A DNA stretch of 42,562 nucleotides from assembly GCA_016871395.1 (NCBI GenBank), contig VFYV01000016.1, positions 1-42,562 of the forward strand. Direction: 5' to 3'. Shown piece after piece: positions 1,311-38,412 of this stretch. The first letter of the stretch is position 1, and every line of letters starts with the position of its first letter. Source of the DNA: Actinomycetota bacterium (lineage in GTDB: Bacteria; Actinomycetota; Acidimicrobiia; Acidimicrobiales; Ilumatobacteraceae). Both the position numbers and the translations under genes were made by a program. The notes under the pieces are model-generated. The model had not been told where the DNA came from. It did no database searches and was given only the letters and a program-made list of their open reading frames with translations.

Positions 1311-1389
1311 AAATGCGAGGCGACGGGGAAGAGACTCTCTGCACAGTGTGCGAAGAGGCCGTCTCTCGCAAATACCGGAAGGGATTCTC

Positions 1390-4300
1390 ATGAACCGCTC
1401 ACCTCGACTCACCGTTCGAATCGTTGCTCTCCTGCTGGCCTTTGGGGGTTTCGCCGCCGCCTGTAGCGGGGGAAACGACGGATCTTCGACGGACACCCCG
1501 TCGGATCAAGGTGCTGCGCGTCCCCTCTTCCAGCCGGCCGCCGCAGTCGGCGTCGACTCCTTCGCCCCCTCGCTTGCATCGACGGTCCTCGAGATCGACG
1601 AGTCCACCCTTCAAGAAGGCACCGCTGGACCGGATGCCGCTGGTCTGTACTCGGGACCGACCTACGGCGGCACCGGCAAGCAGATCTGCGATGTCGAGAA
1701 GATGATCGCTTTCCTCACCACCCACGAGGATCGAGGTCGAGAGTGGGCTCGGATTCAGGGGGTCGCCTACGAGGACGTGGCGACGTTCCTGCGTGGTCTC
1801 ACCCCGGTGTTCTTGCAACAGAACGTGGAATTGACGATGTACGGCTTCCGTGACGGGCAGGCCTACGGATACCCGGCCGTGCTCGAGGCGGGCACGGCGG
1901 TTCTCATCGACGACGAGGGTTTACCCCGGGTCCGATGCGCGTGTGGTAATCCGCTCGAGGTGGTTCCACCCGAGCCGGACCAGCCGCCGTCGACCCAGGA
2001 GGACCCGTGCGTCGATGACTCTGACGGCGTGGTCGTCGACGACTCGATTCCGACCCAGCCGGTTGGCGAGCCCGGTGGCATCTATCCACCGTCCCCGAAC
2101 GGGCCCAACCCGGATGAGTCAGGTGATTCCTCTGATCCGTACGACGATTATCCGTACGACGAGTATCCGTACGACTTCCCGTACGACTACCCGAACGAGG
2201 AAGAGCCCTGCGTCCCCTGCCCTCCCGACGACGGAGCCGGAAACGACGATCTCAACGACTTCCCGAATGATTACGGTCGCACCTACGGTGATTACGACGA
2301 CGACTATCCCTACGACTATCCGCGTACTGATCCGAACGACCCGTGTGCTCCCCACGTGCCGCCGAGCATCTTCTCCGACTGTCTTCCCTTGCTCTACACG
2401 ACTGGTCAGACCTGGCTCGATGTCAACACCGGCTTGATCTGGACCTTCAACGGCATGCGAGATGGTGAGGAGTTGTGGATCTCCAATGGACGAGCGGTCT
2501 TCGGTGTCGACCAGATTCCCGGGTACCCGTGGGAACGTTGCGTTCCTCCGGCCGAGCGAACCTTCGACTGCCCGCCCGACGAACCGCAGCAACTCGATCG
2601 TTACGTTGGCTCGTGGGAGGGTGACGAGTGGTACTGGATGAACGACGGGTGGTACCTCCACACTCCGAACGGTGTCGAGGGCCCCGTTCCTACGGCCGAT
2701 CTTCCGGGTATCGATGCCTGCCGACCGGGCCCGTCGACTGACAATCCCCCGATCGACTGCCCGGCTCTCGACGCGCCCGCCGGCACTCTGTACGAGGGAG
2801 TTGTGAACGGCCTCACCGTCATCTACACCTCGCTCGGACCGACCGATCTTCTGCCCGACACCGTCGAGGAACCGATCACCTATTCGGCGTGGCGAGGGCC
2901 GGACCTCCGCGACGGCGTGCTCCCGACCTTCTCGCTCCCGGGCTACGCCGTTGGCTGTCTCAACGTTCCGGTGTGCCCGCCCACTCAACCTCAGCCCGGA
3001 GACCTAGCCACGATTTCGTGGGCAGGCAGTCCTCGCATGGTGTTGATCTTCGCCGATGTGCCCGGTGATCCGGCCGCCGATGGAATCGACGAGACGTTCG
3101 GTTTCGGTGGTCTCTGGGTGTACGGCTGGGCCGTACCGGGACAAGCACCGACCGAAGACGGTGGTGAAGTGCCACAACCTCAGCTATTGGAGATGAACGA
3201 CTGCCTGCCGCCGTGTCCTCCGGTGTCGGATGTGGCAGTCGGAACGTTCTGGGTTAGCAAATATGGCCGGATGTACGTGTCGTTGGTTGGCGACCGATGG
3301 CGCGACCTGGTCGACGGAACCGAGTTCGAATCGACTCTCCTCCTTCCCAACTTTGCCGAGGAGTGCGGTAACCCGTGTGCGAACACCGACGTCGAGGAGC
3401 CGACCCCGAGCGTGATCATCGGACCGGACGGAAATCCTGAGAATCCCGAGCCGATCGATGATGGTTCGGTGAAGTCGGTTCGCATCGATCCGGACCTTTC
3501 ACAGGGCGATGGATCGAAGTCAGTGGCCCCAGCCGATCCGAACGATGTGCAGGTCGCGGCGACGAACTACGACCTCTGTGATCCCACCGCCTGCCCCGAT
3601 GCCGACAATCCCCAACCTGGTGACACGTTCCACGATGCAATGGGTCGCTGGTGGGTCTTCGACGGCACGATGTGGTCCACGTTCATCGCTCCGATCATGG
3701 CTGTGGACGACATTCGAACGATCGAGGGCTACGACCGTTGCGAGTACGGCGATCGAATTCCCGAAATCGACGACGAATGTCCGGTCGATGCCACCAATGC
3801 CCCTATCGGCACACGAACCACTCTCGAGAGCTGGCCCGGGGTCGATTGGGTGAGGTTCGTGGATGTGTTTGACATTGTCGGTTGGGGTCGCGCCGTCGGG
3901 GACTCCATGATCGACACGGTGTCACTGCAGGCGCCACCGTACGAACCGTGTCTACCCGCACCGGTCTGTCCGCAGTTGCTGCCGCCCGTGTTGATCGGTG
4001 ACCTGTATTGGCCCAACGGGATGGTGGCGGTATCCGACAACTTCAGTGACTCCGAGGCGGTTTACCAGCTACAGAACCTCGGGGGTCCGTGGTTCGCCTA
4101 TGGATTCGACGGGTCACTCGACGAGTCGGTGGTCGACATCTCCACCGTTCCATCATGGGTGGAGTCGTGTTACCAGCCTGCGTGTCCCGGGGCCGCCATT
4201 TTCGAGTCGGTAAGCGGACAGATTTTCCTGGGAACCGACGGCGTCTGGTATCGAAACACGGGATCGTCGTCGGCGACGAAACTGCGACCTGACGCCACTG

Positions 4301-4824
4301 GCATTCCTACTCTCGACCTTCGGTTCGTCGACGAGGTTGGTTCGGTCGATCTGGCCTCTATTCCCGGCCTTTCTGAGTGCGCCGGACCGAGCTTTGAGAT
4401 CGCGCGGCAATTCCTGAAGTCGTCCCCTTCTGAGTCGGTTGCGCCGCCGGTCTCGGTGGCGCCGCCGGTGTCGGTTGCGCCGCCGGTGTCGGTGGCACCG
4501 CCGGTGTCGGTTGCACCGCCGCCCACGGTAAGCAATCCACCGCCCACGGTGTCAAGGCAGAGTTGTTCATGGTCGGCCTCTGGCTTGTCGCTGGAACTCA
4601 CGGCCTCCGACGACACCGACGTGGAGTCGCTCACGTTGACAGCCAATGGAAACCCGTGGACTGCGTCTCCAGACGGCGACGTTTGGTACGTGAGTTTCCT
4701 CGGCCCCAATCAGTTGGGTAAGGCCACGAAGGTGACCTTCGTGGTCACCGCCACCGATTCCCAGGGAGCGGTCACGACGTTCACCTACGAGGCCATCAAA
4801 CCCTCGTCAGGTATCGAGTGCTGA
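1390..4824 (+). CDS. large modular surface lipoprotein with DUF6777-like domain and repeated CP/W modules
   Basis: Predicted lipid-anchored exported protein of 1144 residues, function unknown. The ATG at 1390 follows a GGAAGGGA-like ribosome site and gives a basic n-region, a hydrophobic core and an FAAAC lipobox; an upstream GTG in frame at 1348 is less likely. Residues about 84-189 resemble an actinobacterial domain I recall as DUF6777 (GLY at its start, CGNPL at its end). Two Tyr/Asp/Pro-rich tracts follow (about 249-273 and 299-315). Then come about nine imperfect modules of 50-75 residues. Each opens with Cys (mostly Cys-Pro), has a central G-x-x-W or W-rich strand region and closes near a (L/I)PG...C element, so each could form its own disulfide. 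A five-copy SVAPPV linker (1016-1045) leads to a beta-rich C-terminal domain (1057-1144) with a Cys near each end. A scaffold, adhesin or sensor role is possible; nothing in the sequence decides. Confidence 0.85.
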   Translation: MNRSPRLTVRIVALLLAFGGFAAACSGGNDGSSTDTPSDQGAARPLFQPAAAVGVDSFAPSLASTVLEIDESTLQEGTAGPDAAGLYSGPTYGGTGKQICDVEKMIAFLTTHEDRGREWARIQGVAYEDVATFLRGLTPVFLQQNVELTMYGFRDGQAYGYPAVLEAGTAVLIDDEGLPRVRCACGNPLEVVPPEPDQPPSTQEDPCVDDSDGVVVDDSIPTQPVGEPGGIYPPSPNGPNPDESGDSSDPYDDYPYDEYPYDFPYDYPNEEEPCVPCPPDDGAGNDDLNDFPNDYGRTYGDYDDDYPYDYPRTDPNDPCAPHVPPSIFSDCLPLLYTTGQTWLDVNTGLIWTFNGMRDGEELWISNGRAVFGVDQIPGYPWERCVPPAERTFDCPPDEPQQLDRYVGSWEGDEWYWMNDGWYLHTPNGVEGPVPTADLPGIDACRPGPSTDNPPIDCPALDAPAGTLYEGVVNGLTVIYTSLGPTDLLPDTVEEPITYSAWRGPDLRDGVLPTFSLPGYAVGCLNVPVCPPTQPQPGDLATISWAGSPRMVLIFADVPGDPAADGIDETFGFGGLWVYGWAVPGQAPTEDGGEVPQPQLLEMNDCLPPCPPVSDVAVGTFWVSKYGRMYVSLVGDRWRDLVDGTEFESTLLLPNFAEECGNPCANTDVEEPTPSVIIGPDGNPENPEPIDDGSVKSVRIDPDLSQGDGSKSVAPADPNDVQVAATNYDLCDPTACPDADNPQPGDTFHDAMGRWWVFDGTMWSTFIAPIMAVDDIRTIEGYDRCEYGDRIPEIDDECPVDATNAPIGTRTTLESWPGVDWVRFVDVFDIVGWGRAVGDSMIDTVSLQAPPYEPCLPAPVCPQLLPPVLIGDLYWPNGMVAVSDNFSDSEAVYQLQNLGGPWFAYGFDGSLDESVVDISTVPSWVESCYQPACPGAAIFESVSGQIFLGTDGVWYRNTGSSSATKLRPDATGIPTLDLRFVDEVGSVDLASIPGLSECAGPSFEIARQFLKSSPSESVAPPVSVAPPVSVAPPVSVAPPVSVAPPPTVSNPPPTVSRQSCSWSASGLSLELTASDDTDVESLTLTANGNPWTASPDGDVWYVSFLGPNQLGKATKVTFVVTATDSQGAVTTFTYEAIKPSSGIEC
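2134..2335 (+). repeat. Tyr/Asp/Pro-rich low-complexity coding tracts
   Basis: Inside the large lipoprotein, two tracts (2134-2209 and 2284-2335) encode repeats of the form PYD(D/E/F)YPYD. The codons repeat as ccg-tac-gac and related triplets, so the DNA is also repetitive. They probably form an acidic, flexible spacer between the N-terminal domain and the Cys/Trp modules. Confidence 0.7.
4435..4524 (+). repeat. five tandem copies of an 18-bp unit encoding SVAPPV
   Basis: Five head-to-tail 18-base units (4435, 4453, 4471, 4489, 4507) start tcggt(t/g)gc(g/a)ccgccg and encode Ser-Val-Ala-Pro-Pro-Val. The last unit ends in Pro-Pro and runs into PPPTV-type sequence. The third position alternates t/g between copies, which suggests expansion by a two-unit step. 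The product is a stiff Pro-rich linker before the C-terminal domain. Copy number may vary between strains. Confidence 0.9.
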
Positions 4825-32991: not shown

Positions 32992-34920
32992 TCAGCGGGT
33001 GATGTGGCGCAGGAAATCCTCGACCTCGGAGCGGGTGGTGGAGCGGCGCATGGGCGGCATGGCGGCCAGAATTTCCCGGCGGTAGCCCTTCGTGCCGAGG
33101 CGCGGGTCGAAGACCGCCACCACGCCACGGTCCGTTGCGTTACGAATGAGTCGTCCGGTGGCCTGGGCCAACAAGGTGGCGGCTCGTGGAAGATCGATGT
33201 CGCGAAAGGCCCGATCCCCCAGGGCCTCTCGACGGGCACTGAGCAACGGATCATCGGGTCGGGGAAACGGGATGCGATCGAGGGTGACCAGAGAGAGCGT
33301 ACGCCCGGGGATGTCGATGCCCTGGAAAAAACTGGCCGTGGCGAACAGGCACGACGTCTCATCGTCGGAGAACATTCTCACCAGTCGGCCTCGTTGGTAT
33401 TCGTTCTGCGCCAAGATCGTGACGTCGAGACGTTTGCGCATCTCGACGACCGCAGCGTCCATGGCTCTGTAACTGGTGAACAGAGCCAGTGTTCGTCCGC
33501 CCGCCGCCGAAATGAGATGGAACAGTTCGTCGTGCATTTGCGAACTGAATTGTGCCGAGTTGGGATCAGGCAGCGAGGTCGAGCAATACAGCATCGAGTT
33601 CTCGGCATAATCGAAGGGACTCTCGACGTCGAGCATGTCGGTGTCGTCGGCGGAAAGTCCGATACGCATCGGCAAATTGGTGGGAATCGTGGCGCTGGTG
33701 AGAATCGACGGATGTTTCGACCAGATGCCCTGTCTCAGAATCGGGGCCACGTCGAGGGGTGCAATGTCCAGTTTGGGTCGTTCGGGGCGGCCGGTCACGA
33801 AGGGGACGAACGTGGAACCGATCGCCAGGGCTGCGTCGAGGGTGTCGGCGAGTCGCGTGGCCAACATTTGCGCGCGTAGTTTGCGCTGGTTCGAGTCGTC
33901 GTCCTTGGTCTCGATGCGTCGCAGTCCGTCGAGGGTGCTGCCCACCACTCGCCGTCCCGCGGCCAACACCTCGGCAACGCCCGCGGGTAGTGGTGCGCTC
34001 AGTCGGTTACCGAGATTCGGAGCCAGCACCTCGTTGAGCATCAGGCCCACGTCGGCGATTTCGCGTTGCAGTTTCGAATCATCGAGGATGCGTCGAACCG
34101 CCCCTGCGAAGTACGTGAAGCTGCCCTCTCCGATGGAGAAGCCGACGGTGTCACTCATGATGTCCTCGAGACCGTGGGCCTCGTCGACGATGACCACGTC
34201 GTGCTCGGGTAACACGGCCCCATCGGATGCGATGTGATTTCCGTACAAATGCGTGTTCACGACGATGATCTCGGCCTCGGCGGCGCGGGCGCGGGCCATC
34301 TCGGCGAAGCAACTGCCACCGACGGGGCACCGGTTGGCCCCCGGGCATTCCTCGCTGCCCACGGATACGGCCGAGGTCGCTCGTTCGGAGGGATTGAAAT
34401 CCAGGTCGGCGAAATCCCCGGTGGCGGAGGTGGCCGCCCAGGTGACGATGCGATCGATCTCGTGCTTGGTCGATGCCGAGAATTCGTCGAGATCGAGCAG
34501 TGTGGGGGAGTCGTTGCGCTTGTCCTTTCCGACCACCTGACCCGTCACCTCGGCGATTCGTTGACGGCACACGTAATTGCGTCGACCCTTCAATACGGCC
34601 CACGAGACCTCGTGTTCGAGGAAGTCACTCAGGGTCTCCACGAGGAAGGGAAGATCCTTCGTGGCTAGTTGATCCTGCAGAGCCTTGGTGGCGGTGGCCA
34701 CCACGGTGCGCTTGCCCGCGAGCATGGCCGGAACGAGGTAGGCGATGGTCTTACCCGTGCCGGTGCCGGCTTGAACCACCAGATGACGGCCCTCGGCGAT
34801 GGCTTGCTCGACCGCGGCCGCCATCTGACGCTGTCCCGGGCGAGCCTCAGCGGCGGGAAGAGCCGAGGTGGCGATCTCCATTGCGTCTCTGAGGGTTCGA
34901 CGCACGGGCGATTCTGACAC
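32992..34920 (-). CDS. dinG: DinG/XPD-type ATP-dependent DNA helicase with Fe-S cysteines
   Basis: A 642-residue superfamily-2 helicase of the Rad3/XPD/DinG group, 5'-3' on DNA. Walker A is AGTGTGKT (51-58) and the DEAH box is VDEAHG (245-250). Four Cys, at 118 (YVCRQ) and 192, 198 and 204 (ECPGANRCPVGGSC), match the iron-sulfur cluster set of the family. The C-terminal helicase blocks include SLVTLDRIPFPRPDDP and QATGRLIRN. No exonuclease domain is fused. The GTG start is fixed by TACCGT 6 bases upstream; longer frames run under the uppS gene. It probably acts in repair or R-loop and G4 removal. Confidence 0.9.
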   Translation of the reverse strand: MSESPVRRTLRDAMEIATSALPAAEARPGQRQMAAAVEQAIAEGRHLVVQAGTGTGKTIAYLVPAMLAGKRTVVATATKALQDQLATKDLPFLVETLSDFLEHEVSWAVLKGRRNYVCRQRIAEVTGQVVGKDKRNDSPTLLDLDEFSASTKHEIDRIVTWAATSATGDFADLDFNPSERATSAVSVGSEECPGANRCPVGGSCFAEMARARAAEAEIIVVNTHLYGNHIASDGAVLPEHDVVIVDEAHGLEDIMSDTVGFSIGEGSFTYFAGAVRRILDDSKLQREIADVGLMLNEVLAPNLGNRLSAPLPAGVAEVLAAGRRVVGSTLDGLRRIETKDDDSNQRKLRAQMLATRLADTLDAALAIGSTFVPFVTGRPERPKLDIAPLDVAPILRQGIWSKHPSILTSATIPTNLPMRIGLSADDTDMLDVESPFDYAENSMLYCSTSLPDPNSAQFSSQMHDELFHLISAAGGRTLALFTSYRAMDAAVVEMRKRLDVTILAQNEYQRGRLVRMFSDDETSCLFATASFFQGIDIPGRTLSLVTLDRIPFPRPDDPLLSARREALGDRAFRDIDLPRAATLLAQATGRLIRNATDRGVVAVFDPRLGTKGYRREILAAMPPMRRSTTRSEVEDFLRHITR

Positions 34921-34926
34921 GGCGAC

Positions 34927-34932
34927 ACGGTA
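34927..34932 (-). promoter_or_regulatory. -10 hexamer TACCGT, dinG-like gene
   Basis: Minus-strand TACCGT, 6 bases before the GTG at 34920. Confidence 0.55.
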
Positions 34933-34994
34933 CAGCAGACCCGAGTGGGCTCGTGGATCGCCGGGCGGCCGACTCGATTCGGTGTGAGCGGCAG

Positions 34995-35666
34995 TCAGCG
35001 CGGTGTCGAGGCCGCGCGACGAGCCAAGGCGATGGCGTCGGCGAGATCGCTCGACGAATAGTCGGGCCAGGCCGCTTCGGCGAACGAGATGGGAGCGCCC
35101 TGCGACTGCCACAGGAGGAAGTTCGAGACCCGCGTCTCACCTGACGTTCGAACGAGGACGTCGACCGGCGCAAGGTCGGGGTCGTAGAGGCAGGAGCCGA
35201 TCGAATCAGCGGTGATGGCCCGTCCGCTTCGTCGAAGGGTTTCGGCGGCGTGGGCGATCTCGGTGCGGCTGCCGTAATCGAAAGCCACCGTCAGGGTCAT
35301 CCCGGTGTTCTTTTCGGTGTCTCTGATGGCCTTGGTGATCGCGCGCTGCACGTAGCGCGGAGTTCTCGCCGAACGGTCGCCGAATGGCCGCCCGATCCAA
35401 CGCACGCGTACGTTCGCATCGTTCAATTCGGCGATTCGACCGAACAACTTCTCGTGCAGACCCAGGATGTGGCGCACCTCCCGACGTGGTCGCACCCAGT
35501 TCTCGGTCGAGAAACCAAAAACCGTCAGGTGATCGACGTTCAGTCGCACCGCTTCACGAACGACGGCAGCCAGATTCTCCTCACCCGCCGTATGGCCGGC
35601 GGTTCGCGGGAGGCCTCGTTGTCGAGCCCATCGACCGTTCCCATCCATGATGCAGGCGACATGCAT
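34995..35666 (-). CDS. uppS: cis-prenyltransferase catalytic subunit (UppS-like, lacking RxG tail)
   Basis: A 223-residue Z-type prenyl diphosphate synthase, making the undecaprenyl or a shorter cis-prenyl carrier from isopentenyl diphosphate. Present: MDGNGRWA (7-14) with catalytic Asp8, GFSTENW (51-57), and RTSGETRVSNFLLWQ (173-187). Missing: the Glu of the usual WQxAYAELYF block (here WQSQGAPISF, 186-195) and the C-terminal RERRFGG tail (here it ends DAIALARRAASTPR). In E. coli UppS that Glu is a magnesium ligand and the RxG element contacts the diphosphate. Both missing parts occur in the divergent neighbour at 35,743. The start is the ATG 6 bases after TACGGT; the protein is short for UppS (about 250). 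I infer that it needs the partner subunit. Confidence 0.9.
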   Translation of the reverse strand: MHVACIMDGNGRWARQRGLPRTAGHTAGEENLAAVVREAVRLNVDHLTVFGFSTENWVRPRREVRHILGLHEKLFGRIAELNDANVRVRWIGRPFGDRSARTPRYVQRAITKAIRDTEKNTGMTLTVAFDYGSRTEIAHAAETLRRSGRAITADSIGSCLYDPDLAPVDVLVRTSGETRVSNFLLWQSQGAPISFAEAAWPDYSSSDLADAIALARRAASTPR

Positions 35667-35742
35667 GGAGGCACCGTACATCGTCGAAGTGGTCGACCGT
35701 CGGAGCCGCCGAGTGCCCCCACCCGTCGGTAACAATGGGAGT
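35667..35742. promoter_or_regulatory. bidirectional leaderless promoter region of the cis-prenyltransferase pair
   Basis: Seventy-six bases separate the two divergent starts. On the minus strand TACGGT (35678-35673) is 6 bases before the uppS ATG. On the plus strand AACAAT (35731-35736) is 6 bases before the partner GTG at 35743. Shared control would keep the two subunits balanced. Confidence 0.5.
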
Positions 35743-36303
35743 GTGTTCAGTCGCATGAAACGTCGCCGCGGGGTCAAGGTTCCGAATCCGGGAAGCCACT
35801 TGCACCATGTGGTGATCGCTGGTGGGGAACTCGATGACTGGGAGGCGATGTCCCCTGATCTATGGACGAGTCGGGTCACGATGCTGGCCACCGTGGCTGC
35901 GGACCATGGTGCTCGCTGGGTCACGGTTTTCCCGTTCGGCGCTCGTCCGGTGCCCGATTGCCCGATGACGACGGTGTCGAGCGAAGTCGCCGGGGTGCGC
36001 GTCCAGGTGACTCCCCATGCTGACGGGCGCCGGCGTATCGCTGAGATCCTGCGGGGTGCCACGGACGTCGAATTCGACGAGCAGTCGGTCGAGGAACTCC
36101 TGCACGGCGAGGCCGGTGAGCCCGATCTGGTCGTCGTGCTGGGAAGTGATGACCGCCTGCCACCGTCGTTGGTGTGGGAGTTGGCCTACAGCGAGTTGGT
36201 GTTCGTGCCCGTCGAGTGGTCCGTCCTCGATGGAGCGCAACTGGACGATGCGCTCAGGGCGTACCTCGGGCGTGAGCGTCGATTCGGTGGAGTCGATGAA
36301 TGA
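35743..36303 (+). CDS. degenerate cis-prenyltransferase homologue, NgBR/Nus1-like putative partner subunit
   Basis: A 186-residue protein that I read as a full-length but catalytically dead UppS relative. HLHHVVIAGGELDDW (19-33) takes the place of HVACIMDGNGRW, so the catalytic Asp and P-loop residues are gone. WVTVFPFGARPV matches the LTVFGFSTENW region. EPDLVVVLGSDDRLPPSLVWELAYSELVFVPVEW (126-159) aligns with DVLVRTSGETRVSNFLLWQ..., with RTSGE replaced by LGSDD. It retains AYSEL (148-152) and ends with GRERRFGG (176-183), the tail conserved in canonical UppS and known as the RxG motif in the eukaryotic NgBR subunit. The basic MKRRRG start suggests membrane or RNA contact. GTG 35743 is chosen from the AACAAT spacing; ATG 35755 is the alternative. 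The stop overlaps recO as ATGA. Confidence 0.8.
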   Translation: MFSRMKRRRGVKVPNPGSHLHHVVIAGGELDDWEAMSPDLWTSRVTMLATVAADHGARWVTVFPFGARPVPDCPMTTVSSEVAGVRVQVTPHADGRRRIAEILRGATDVEFDEQSVEELLHGEAGEPDLVVVLGSDDRLPPSLVWELAYSELVFVPVEWSVLDGAQLDDALRAYLGRERRFGGVDE

Positions 36304-37070
36304 CCAGTCGTTTGTATCGGGACCGGGGAATCGTTCTACGCACCTACAAATCCGGCGAGGCTGACCGCATCATCGTGTTTCTCACGGAGAACAACGGGAA
36401 GGTGCGGGCCATCGCCAAGGGCGTTCGCAAGACGAGGTCGCGGTTCGGTGGTCGGCTCGAGCCGTTGTCGTTGTTGGATGTCCAGTTCCATCGGGGTCGT
36501 GAACTCGACATCGTGAATCAAGTGGAGACGGTGGACAGCACCAACAAAGTGTTCGGTGATCTGGATTCCATGAGCGAAGGGATCGCCGTTCTCGAAGCGG
36601 TCGATCAGATGGTTCCCGATCGCGAGCCGGTTCCCCATCTGTACCGAATGCTCCTGGGCGTTCGGCGTACCTTGCTGACGCGTCCGTCGCCGCTGGTGGT
36701 GCCGGCCTTCCTGTGGAAGTTGCTGGCGTCCGAGGGTGTCCATCCGGTGCTCGATCGCTGTTCGTCGTGCGGTGAGCCTCCCGCGGGCGGCACCGAGTTC
36801 GGCACCTTCGACGTCCGACACGGGGGAGTGACGTGTTCGGCCTGTCGTTCGGGTGCGCCGGTCAGTGGGCCGGCGCTCGAGCTGATGCGCGAGATTCTCG
36901 GAGGGCGACTCGGAGACGCCTTGGACCGAGCGTTTCACCCGTCGGGTCAAACCCTCGACGACCCGGTGATCAACGAGGTATCGAATCTGGCGACGCGCGC
37001 CTTCGAACATCACGTGGAGAGGCGCCTGAAGTCGGTTTCCATCTTCGAGCGCCACGATTCGGGTCGGTGA
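36300..37070 (+). CDS. recO: DNA repair protein RecO
   Basis: A 256-residue recombination mediator that works with RecF/RecR to load RecA on gaps. The N-terminal OB-fold is LYRDRGIVLRTYKSGEADRIIVFLTENNGKVRAIAKGVRK, a strong RecO signature (shown here by its blocks YRDRGIVL, GEADRII and KGVRK). A C4 zinc site is made by RCSSCGE and TCSACRS in the helical C-terminal domain. The ATG overlaps the stop of the cis-prenyltransferase homologue (ATGA), so the two are translationally coupled. recO is commonly next to uppS and era in Actinobacteria, which supports the prenyltransferase reading of its partner. Confidence 0.94.
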   Translation: MTSRLYRDRGIVLRTYKSGEADRIIVFLTENNGKVRAIAKGVRKTRSRFGGRLEPLSLLDVQFHRGRELDIVNQVETVDSTNKVFGDLDSMSEGIAVLEAVDQMVPDREPVPHLYRMLLGVRRTLLTRPSPLVVPAFLWKLLASEGVHPVLDRCSSCGEPPAGGTEFGTFDVRHGGVTCSACRSGAPVSGPALELMREILGGRLGDALDRAFHPSGQTLDDPVINEVSNLATRAFEHHVERRLKSVSIFERHDSGR

Positions 37071-37101: not shown

Positions 37102-38412
37102 ATGGCGGCCTCGGACCTCGACCAGATCGTCAACCTGTGCAAGCGTCGGGGGTTCGTCTACCCGTCCGCCGAGATCTACGGTGGGTTCCGCAGTTCCTAC
37201 GATTACGGCCCGCTCGGTTCGTTGATGCTGCGCAACGTGCGCGAGTCGTGGGTTCGCACGATGGTGCAGAAGCGCGACGACGTGGTGTTGATCGACGCGG
37301 CCATCCTCGGTCCCCCGCAGGTGTTCGAGGCCAGTGGTCACTTGGCGAATTTCAGTGACCCCTTGGTCGATTGCAAGAAGTGCAAACAACGTTTTCGCGA
37401 GGATCACTTGGACAACCCCTCGGTCTGCCCCAATTGTGGCTCGGTGGGAACCCTCACCCAGGCACGAGCTTTCAATCTGATGTTCAAGACCTTCGCCGGA
37501 CCGGTGGAAGGGTCCGGTGCCGAGGTCTACCTGCGTCCGGAGACCGCTCAGGGAATGTTCGTGAACTTCACCAACGTTTTGCAGACCAGTCGCAAGAAGC
37601 CCCCGTTCGGCATCGCACAAGTCGGCAAGAGTTTCCGAAACGAGATCACTCCCGGAAACTTCATTTTCCGCACACGAGAATTCGAACAAATGGAGTTGGA
37701 GTTTTTCGTCCCGCCAGCCGAGGGTCCGCGGTGGTACGAGTATTGGTGCAACGCACGCATGCAGTGGTACGTGGATCTCGGTATCCCGGCCCACATGCTC
37801 CGTTTGCGGGCCCACGACGCCGACGAGTTGTCTCACTACTCGGCGGGCACCTCCGACGTCGAATTCGCCTACCCGTGGGGCTGGGGAGAGTTGGAAGGCA
37901 TCGCCCAACGCACGAATTTCGACCTGAACCAACACGCCACGCATTCGGGACAGAGGCTGGAGTATTTCGATCAATCGACCAACGAACGCTACGTGCCGTT
38001 CGTGATCGAGCCGGCCGCGGGTGTGAATCGCGCGATGGCCGCCTTCTTGTTGGCCGCCTACGAGGAACAGCAGATGGGAGACGAGGTGCGCACCGTTCTG
38101 CACCTGCACCCTCGCTTGGCTCCGTGCAAGATCGCCGTGCTCCCGCTCAGTAAAAAGGACTCGCTCACACCGTTGGCCCGCTCCATCTTCGAGTCTCTGG
38201 CAGAGCACTACATGGTCGACTACGACGACACTCAGTCCATCGGCAAGCGGTATCGGCGCCAGGACGAGATCGGCACCCCGGTGTGCGTGACGGTGGACTT
38301 CGACTCGCTCGATGATCGGGCCGTCACGATTCGGGATCGAGACTCCATGGAACAGACCCGCGTCCCCATCGTCGATCTTCGATCAGAAATCGGGTCCCGC
38401 CTGGGTTTCTGA
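37102..38412 (+). CDS. glyS: glycyl-tRNA synthetase, alpha2 type
   Basis: A 436-residue class II aminoacyl-tRNA synthetase of the homodimeric (eukaryote-like) form. Motif 1 region is YGGFRSSYDYGPLG. A CKKCKQRF...CPNCG pair (C-x2-C and C-x2-C) forms a zinc-binding insert. RPETAQGMFVNF, GKSFRNEITP (motif 2) and PAAGVNRAMAAFLL (motif 3) follow, and the C-terminal anticodon-binding domain starts near LAPCKIAVLPL. The length matches actinobacterial GlyRS. Start supported by a leaderless hexamer. Confidence 0.96.
   Translation: MAASDLDQIVNLCKRRGFVYPSAEIYGGFRSSYDYGPLGSLMLRNVRESWVRTMVQKRDDVVLIDAAILGPPQVFEASGHLANFSDPLVDCKKCKQRFREDHLDNPSVCPNCGSVGTLTQARAFNLMFKTFAGPVEGSGAEVYLRPETAQGMFVNFTNVLQTSRKKPPFGIAQVGKSFRNEITPGNFIFRTREFEQMELEFFVPPAEGPRWYEYWCNARMQWYVDLGIPAHMLRLRAHDADELSHYSAGTSDVEFAYPWGWGELEGIAQRTNFDLNQHATHSGQRLEYFDQSTNERYVPFVIEPAAGVNRAMAAFLLAAYEEQQMGDEVRTVLHLHPRLAPCKIAVLPLSKKDSLTPLARSIFESLAEHYMVDYDDTQSIGKRYRRQDEIGTPVCVTVDFDSLDDRAVTIRDRDSMEQTRVPIVDLRSEIGSRLGF

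Follow-up and report, generated by a model that had tools for sequence, protein, structure and literature searches.

We describe in the family Ilumatobacteraceae, bacteria of soil and water, a pair of adjacent, divergently transcribed genes that very probably encode a two-subunit cis-prenyltransferase making a polyprenyl carrier. One, here called CAT, encodes a UppS-like chain of catalytic type that lacks the C-terminal RxG tail; the other, PAR, encodes a degenerate chain of the same fold that keeps this tail and has lost the substrate-binding motifs. The two chains are homologous, the motifs of a one-chain UppS are partitioned between them, the pairing is family-wide, three complete genomes hold no other cis-prenyltransferase, and both genes are under purifying selection. 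The pair was recognised in a stretch of 42,562 nucleotides, the whole of which we call the window (contig VFYV01000016.1 of assembly GCA_016871395.1, positions 1 to 42,562 of the forward strand), and the features of the locus are collected in Table 1.

Table 1. Features of the CAT/PAR locus, in window coordinates
Feature	Position	Strand	Basis
DinG-type helicase, downstream of CAT, same strand	32992..35112 (open frame; true start probably near 34928)	-	Pfam Helicase_C_2 and DEAD
CAT, cis-prenyltransferase (UppS-like) catalytic-type chain without C-terminal RxG tail	34995..35681	-	PF01255 and AlphaFold2 model
CAT, position of the canonical AYxE glutamate, Pro here (QGAPIS)	35091..35093	-	Sequence
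CAT, RTSGE motif (IPP-site arginine)	35136..35150	-	RTSxE in 115/117 distinct CAT
CAT, FSTENW motif	35496..35513	-	FSxENW in 117/117 distinct CAT
CAT, DGNGRW (Mg/diphosphate P-loop)	35628..35645	-	117/117 distinct CAT; invariant in 54-row alignment
Intergenic stretch of 61 bases separating the two divergent starts, presumably a common promoter region	35682..35742	.	Deduced from the positions of both starts
PAR, degenerate partner with UppS fold, predicted to be non-catalytic and to donate its tail in trans	35743..36303	+	PF01255, profile, AlphaFold2 model
PAR, WELAYSE, AYxE glutamate kept at 36193-36195	36175..36195	+	W, E, L, Y and Glu invariant in 26-row alignment
PAR, C-terminal RERRFGG (RxG motif); the prediction is that it completes the active site of CAT	36271..36291	+	120/120 distinct PAR; invariant in 26-row alignment
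recO, follows PAR; landmark of the ancestral uppS site	36300..37070	+	Pfam RecO_N and RecO_C
Class II tRNA synthetase adjoining recO, read as glyS	37102..38412	+	Pfam tRNA-synt_2b and HGTP_anticodon

Both genes had been proposed in an earlier note on this DNA, and the window sequence holds them with every motif that the note quoted in its place, within limits narrower than the open frames; the start of PAR was set at a GTG by alignment with relatives. Of the neighbouring genes, we take the helicase to be DinG and the tRNA synthetase to be glycyl (glyS). Elsewhere in the window, a 1158-residue open frame (1348-4824) with a DUF6777 domain near its N-terminus lies beside a gene for a GH10 glycosyl hydrolase (24-1310).

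Both chains belong to the cis-prenyltransferases. CAT matches Pfam PF01255 (curated cut-off 27) with 211.2 bits and E 1.8e-62 over profile positions 1-209 of 219; since the match stops there, the final ten positions, which are the tail, are missing. PAR, searched with profiles as the earlier note had proposed, matches the other end of the same family (42.5 bits, E 7.3e-11, positions 144-219 of 219). Compared directly by BLASTP, the window CAT and PAR share a best piece of 44 residues with E 0.005, and their family profiles align by hhalign over 91 columns (probability 97.3, E 2.6e-11). The statement that PAR aligns along its whole length thus fails for the two window sequences, but does hold for the predicted structure and when the PAR profile is compared with solved UppS, that of E. 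coli being matched with E 2.4e-20 and 76 bits across positions 22-175 of 176. AlphaFold2 models of CAT and PAR, with the window and fetched sequences as input alignment, reached pLDDT values of 87.8 and 88.8, respectively, and when these predicted models were compared with the PDB by Foldseek, the best 50 matches listed for each were cis-prenyltransferases, with TM scores of about 0.8 (top 0.84) for CAT and of 0.5-0.6 for PAR. An unrelated fold for PAR, which would have undone the proposal, is therefore not what either the models or the profile indicate.

The partition of motifs was counted in CAT and PAR sequences from genomes of the family and from named public contigs, comprising 142 CAT rows (117 distinct) and 143 PAR rows (120 distinct). 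DGNGRW is present in 117/117 distinct CAT and in 0/120 distinct PAR; FSxENW and RTSxE are likewise each found in 0/120 distinct PAR, and the only two distinct CAT without RTSxE (L115 and L131) run off their contigs. Conversely, the RxRRFGG tail is present in 120/120 distinct PAR and in 0/113 of the distinct CAT that reach a stop codon, the four that run off their contigs (L080, L115, L116 and L131) being left out of this count; a division this regular is no accident. In 34 one-chain UppS taken for comparison, 30 from other families of the order and four from one-chain genomes of Ilumatobacteraceae, DGNGRW, FSxENW, RTSxE and the AYxE glutamate are each present in 34/34 and the tail in 33/34, the exception (L179) ending in RERLFGG. 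Neither CAT nor PAR thus carries every motif, RxG included, in one chain, as a homodimeric UppS does; together they have the composition of the heteromeric class, namely a catalytic chain without RxG and a partner that shares its fold, has RxG and lacks the P-loop.

The complementary motif loss claimed in the earlier note is accordingly borne out for the tail and needs rewording for the AYxE glutamate, which in CAT is better called unconstrained than always lost: 12/114 readable distinct CAT have Glu there, and the others P, A, K, Q, R, H or T. All 120 distinct PAR have this glutamate, although the named loci were retrieved with the pattern [VM]WELAY[SAG]E and have it by construction, so that the fair count for PAR is 63/63, in the set not selected by that motif. 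A further signature of CAT is the change of NYGGR to DYG, seen in 116/116 readable distinct CAT and in 1/34 one-chain UppS.

The columns that do not vary are the ones expected of two such subunits. Among the columns that never vary across 54 CAT rows are DGNGRWA, FSTENW, and RTSGE with the next Arg and Ser. In a 26-row PAR alignment, whose rows were picked independently of the WELxYxE motif, WELxYxE and RxRRFGG account for 11 of the 16 invariant columns, although identity per column averages 42%. In the alignment the phosphate-binding motifs are missing from PAR, and with them some 40 residues that span the FSxENW region and the next helix; a functional active site is therefore not expected in PAR, and its product tunnel is presumably lost too. 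Both genes are nevertheless constrained: dN/dS is 0.075-0.15 for CAT and 0.14-0.33 for PAR against five kin of the window, with medians of 0.119 over 241 close pairs and 0.078 over 24 close pairs, respectively (crude NG86 values, some with saturated dS, all well under 1).

How the two chains might work together is suggested by known enzymes. In cis-prenyltransferase dimers of solved structure the RxG tail works in trans, and the partition is therefore best explained if CAT and PAR form an obligate heteromer, each pair having a single active site. In M. tuberculosis DPPS (MtDPPS), Arg292, located in the tail of the opposite subunit, makes contact with both Asp76 and the phosphate of the substrate (PMC6450523); in human DHDDS/NgBR, the RxG tail of NgBR is reported to help form both substrate sites of DHDDS, and the change R290H to lower activity (PMC7573591). 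By analogy, CAT would bind the allylic primer, Mg and IPP through its own DGNGRW, FSTENW and RTSGE, while PAR would dimerise with CAT through the usual UppS interface and insert its RxRRFGG tail into the CAT active site. A CAT:PAR dimer would then contain one complete active site, a CAT:CAT dimer no tails and a PAR:PAR dimer no sites, and since PAR no longer offers an active site for a tail to complete, CAT could have dispensed with its own. The product would be a polyprenyl diphosphate carrier of the C50-C55 class for peptidoglycan and other envelope glycans. The physical complex, the action of the tail in trans, the substrate and the product are all predictions. MraY/WecA-family users of polyprenyl phosphate are present in 6/6 genomes examined, so the organism needs such a product.

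The conservation check that the earlier note proposed turned out strongly positive, the pair being a property of the family and not of the window alone. From 165 relatives found, 80 named loci were kept, and 76/80 of these hold the pair, divergent in 76/76, the other four having no CAT on the available piece. The named matches include two isolates, Ilumatobacter nonamiensis YM16-303 and Desertimonas flava, which the NCBI taxonomy places in Ilumatobacteraceae; they coincide in contig and position with G140 and G030 of the window's family (f1), hence the name used for that family here. PF01255 matches occur in 208/221 family genomes, and the remaining 13, without any, are all under 85% complete. 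Among the 79 good family genomes (completeness of 90% or more, contamination of 5% or less; tallied by hand from the per-genome match counts), 74 have exactly two matches, one (G183) has three and four have one. Of these four, G034 and G233 have a single full-length chain each, as have G234 and G144, G101 has its PAR at a contig edge, and in G096 PAR has an in-frame stop beside an assembly gap. One further MAG, G063, has an intact CAT and, at the start of the same contig, a PAR broken by stops and frame changes (L187:1-587); this could reflect either a faulty assembly or a genuine exception. A second, complete uppS elsewhere in the genome could make the pair dispensable, and we looked for one: besides CAT and PAR, no PF01255 match exists in the window's own genome (87% complete) or in G035, G131 and G138, each a single contig and 99% complete, and this possibility was discarded.

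Several peculiarities of individual loci were seen along the way. In a genome of genus g4 (G085), a 695-residue open frame, judged by eye to resemble a polytopic membrane protein, lies between PAR and CAT on the PAR strand (L189:4814-6901), and the distance between CAT and PAR is also about 2 kb in L138. G085, a MAG, has two CAT genes (C103, C23; L050, L051), each beside a copy of dinG, perhaps from a strain mixture. The titles of five loci holding the pair or PAR (L134, L138, L144, L146 and L147) name unrelated taxa (Acidobacteria, Ferrithrix thermotolerans, Bifidobacterium breve), and these are probably mislabelled MAGs.

Outside the family the one-chain form prevails. A full-length chain matching PF01255 positions 1-219 is present in 111/114 genomes from the rest of the order, four of which have a second one; of the other three, one has no PF01255 match and two have fragments. 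In a sample of 296 genomes of the phylum, the 11 family members score at least 185 bits with the PAR profile and the next genome, among the matches listed, 102; coverage of this profile does not separate the family, as a few outside genomes match nearly end to end (among them G498, 6-175, and G489, 10-175). Two candidates for similar cases were followed and rejected: the PAR-like proteins elsewhere in the phylum, since the ten outside genomes checked have full-length 1-219 chains, and a parallel split in family f124, whose genomes have two matches each, since both copies run 1-219 in the seven f124 genomes examined.

The strongest competing reading is that CAT is by itself an active homodimer, on which PAR has no more than a modulating effect as an accessory regulator or adaptor. 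M. mazei MM_0014 gives this reading its substance: it is reported to be a tail-less cis-prenyltransferase that is homodimeric in the crystal and active (PMC8131916), so the absence of a tail alone is no proof that CAT needs PAR, and the MAG G063 has a broken PAR and an intact CAT. We nevertheless consider it unlikely, because a mere regulator would have no need to retain RxRRFGG, because the most strictly constrained residues of PAR include those that complete the active site of the neighbour in known dimers (PMC6450523, PMC7573591), and because both matches are kept in 74/79 good family genomes, only G096 among the other five having a broken PAR beside CAT. That PAR is instead a decaying UppS pseudogene, surviving by chance beside a replacement enzyme, is hardly credible: it has indeed lost all three substrate-binding motifs and evolves faster than CAT (mean column identity 44% vs 73%), but its 120 distinct open sequences all have their stop after the tail, its dN/dS is low, and disruptions of PAR are seen in two MAGs only (G063 and G096).

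A different objection concerns the product. CAT and PAR could make a special compound while another, unrecognised enzyme makes the cell-wall carrier; chain length is not readable from the CAT and PAR sequences, and heteromeric enzymes generally make long chains according to a review (PMC7839719). This, too, seems very unlikely, given that the three single-contig genomes hold no other PF01255 protein even though MraY/WecA-family users of polyprenyl phosphate are present in the genomes examined, and given that the relatives in the order have their UppS in the same place beside recO. We therefore retain the two-subunit carrier synthase as the preferred reading.

The gene order points to where the pair came from. 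uppS and recO are neighbours on one strand in 30/30 order loci (the best-scoring 30 of the order set), with dinG divergent upstream in the 12 whose short flank shows it, and the family member G034, which has a one-chain UppS, has the order dinG / uppS-recO-glyS. In the split genomes PAR is in the uppS place beside recO, and CAT lies between PAR and dinG, on the dinG strand. We infer one duplication at the dinG-uppS-recO site in an ancestor of most Ilumatobacteraceae, after which PAR kept the old place and CAT came to lie on the opposite strand; such a local duplication is the simplest account of the two genes. In the tree CAT forms one group and PAR another (each 100/100), which speaks for a single origin. 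However, the CAT stem is long and weakly attached (89/45), and the branches of PAR are longer still and flagged as unsafe by the tree program, so the tree does not show that PAR arose inside the order. The best matches of CAT outside the family, among 198 genomes of the class, are one-chain UppS of the same order (48-50% identity in the top rows); this comparison covers the class alone, and CAT may still be of foreign (horizontal) origin.

Genus g50 was considered as a possible case of loss of both genes. In G233 and G235 (L186, L195), the two genomes of the genus read at this place, dinG adjoins recO without uppS in between, and G233 and G234 have elsewhere a one-chain UppS of another type (tail RRRRxG), as has G144, filed in genus g13 (L036-L038 for the three). 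A tree of RecO and GlyS joins g50 to G034 (support 0.933) beside, and not within, the split genomes, although it supports the split group with 0.05 and the whole family with 0.47. Co-loss was set aside on this placement, which makes it more likely that g50 replaced a one-chain UppS.

The proposed enzyme resembles several known systems and differs from each of them: (i) With the eukaryotic DHDDS/NgBR it shares the division between a catalytic chain, which has the P-loop Asp, and an inactive chain that is folded alike and completes the active site of the first with its C-terminal RxG motif (PMC7573591). Unlike NgBR, the window PAR has by eye no visible N-terminal membrane segment; unlike DHDDS, CAT ends after its last helix, without the C-terminal helix-turn-helix through which two DHDDS/NgBR heterodimers pair up; and the role predicted for CAT:PAR is in the bacterial envelope. 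(ii) M. mazei MM_0618/MM_1083 is also a two-chain prokaryotic cis-prenyltransferase, said to give C45-50 products (PMC8131916), but it is archaeal and is likened to CAT/PAR here by description only. (iii) The homodimers of bacterial UppS and MtDPPS have the same fold, the same total set of motifs and a tail acting in trans across the dimer (PMC6450523), but they carry all motifs in each chain and have two equal active sites, whereas CAT/PAR has two genes and one predicted site per dimer.

PAR moreover does not look like a NUS1 orthologue. Its profile scores about 25 bits against NUS1 chains (E 8.7e-5 to 1.7e-4; E 0.51 for the yeast-type NUS1 6jcn) and 76 bits against E. coli UppS, so a transferred NgBR is not indicated and convergence from an independent origin is most likely. 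Human DHDDS may also lack the AYxE-type Glu and NgBR keep it, an idea to which we give no weight here. We think it likely, with considerable confidence, that Ilumatobacteraceae independently evolved an obligate heteromeric cis-prenyltransferase, in which, following a local duplication of uppS, each copy gave up those motifs that matter to its counterpart alone (the active site in one, the trans tail in the other) and an essential homodimer turned into an obligate heterodimer, in convergence with DHDDS/NgBR; genera of the family that retain a one-chain enzyme offer the comparison.

A review assigns homodimeric cis-prenyltransferases to bacteria and plants and heteromeric ones typically to fungi, metazoa, plants and animals (PMC7839719), and the accessible portion of PMC13247534 names no bacterial heteromeric enzyme. 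In the open-access literature, judged by titles and the starts of abstracts, we found no bacterial heteromeric cis-prenyltransferase, in agreement with the earlier note, which knew of none, and our search of that literature found no paper linking Ilumatobacter with undecaprenyl. Two-chain cis-prenyltransferases being known in eukaryotes and in M. mazei (PMC8131916), the bacterial form appears, within the literature searched, to be new.

If the proposal is true, an essential bacterial enzyme that is also a drug target would exist in a two-chain form, and nature would have repeated independently the emergence of DHDDS/NgBR. Being compact, bacterial and accompanied by one-chain relatives within both its order and its family, the pair would allow a test of whether heteromerisation begins with the reciprocal loss of the cis and trans parts of the active site, and would also provide a setting for asking what the trans tail does.
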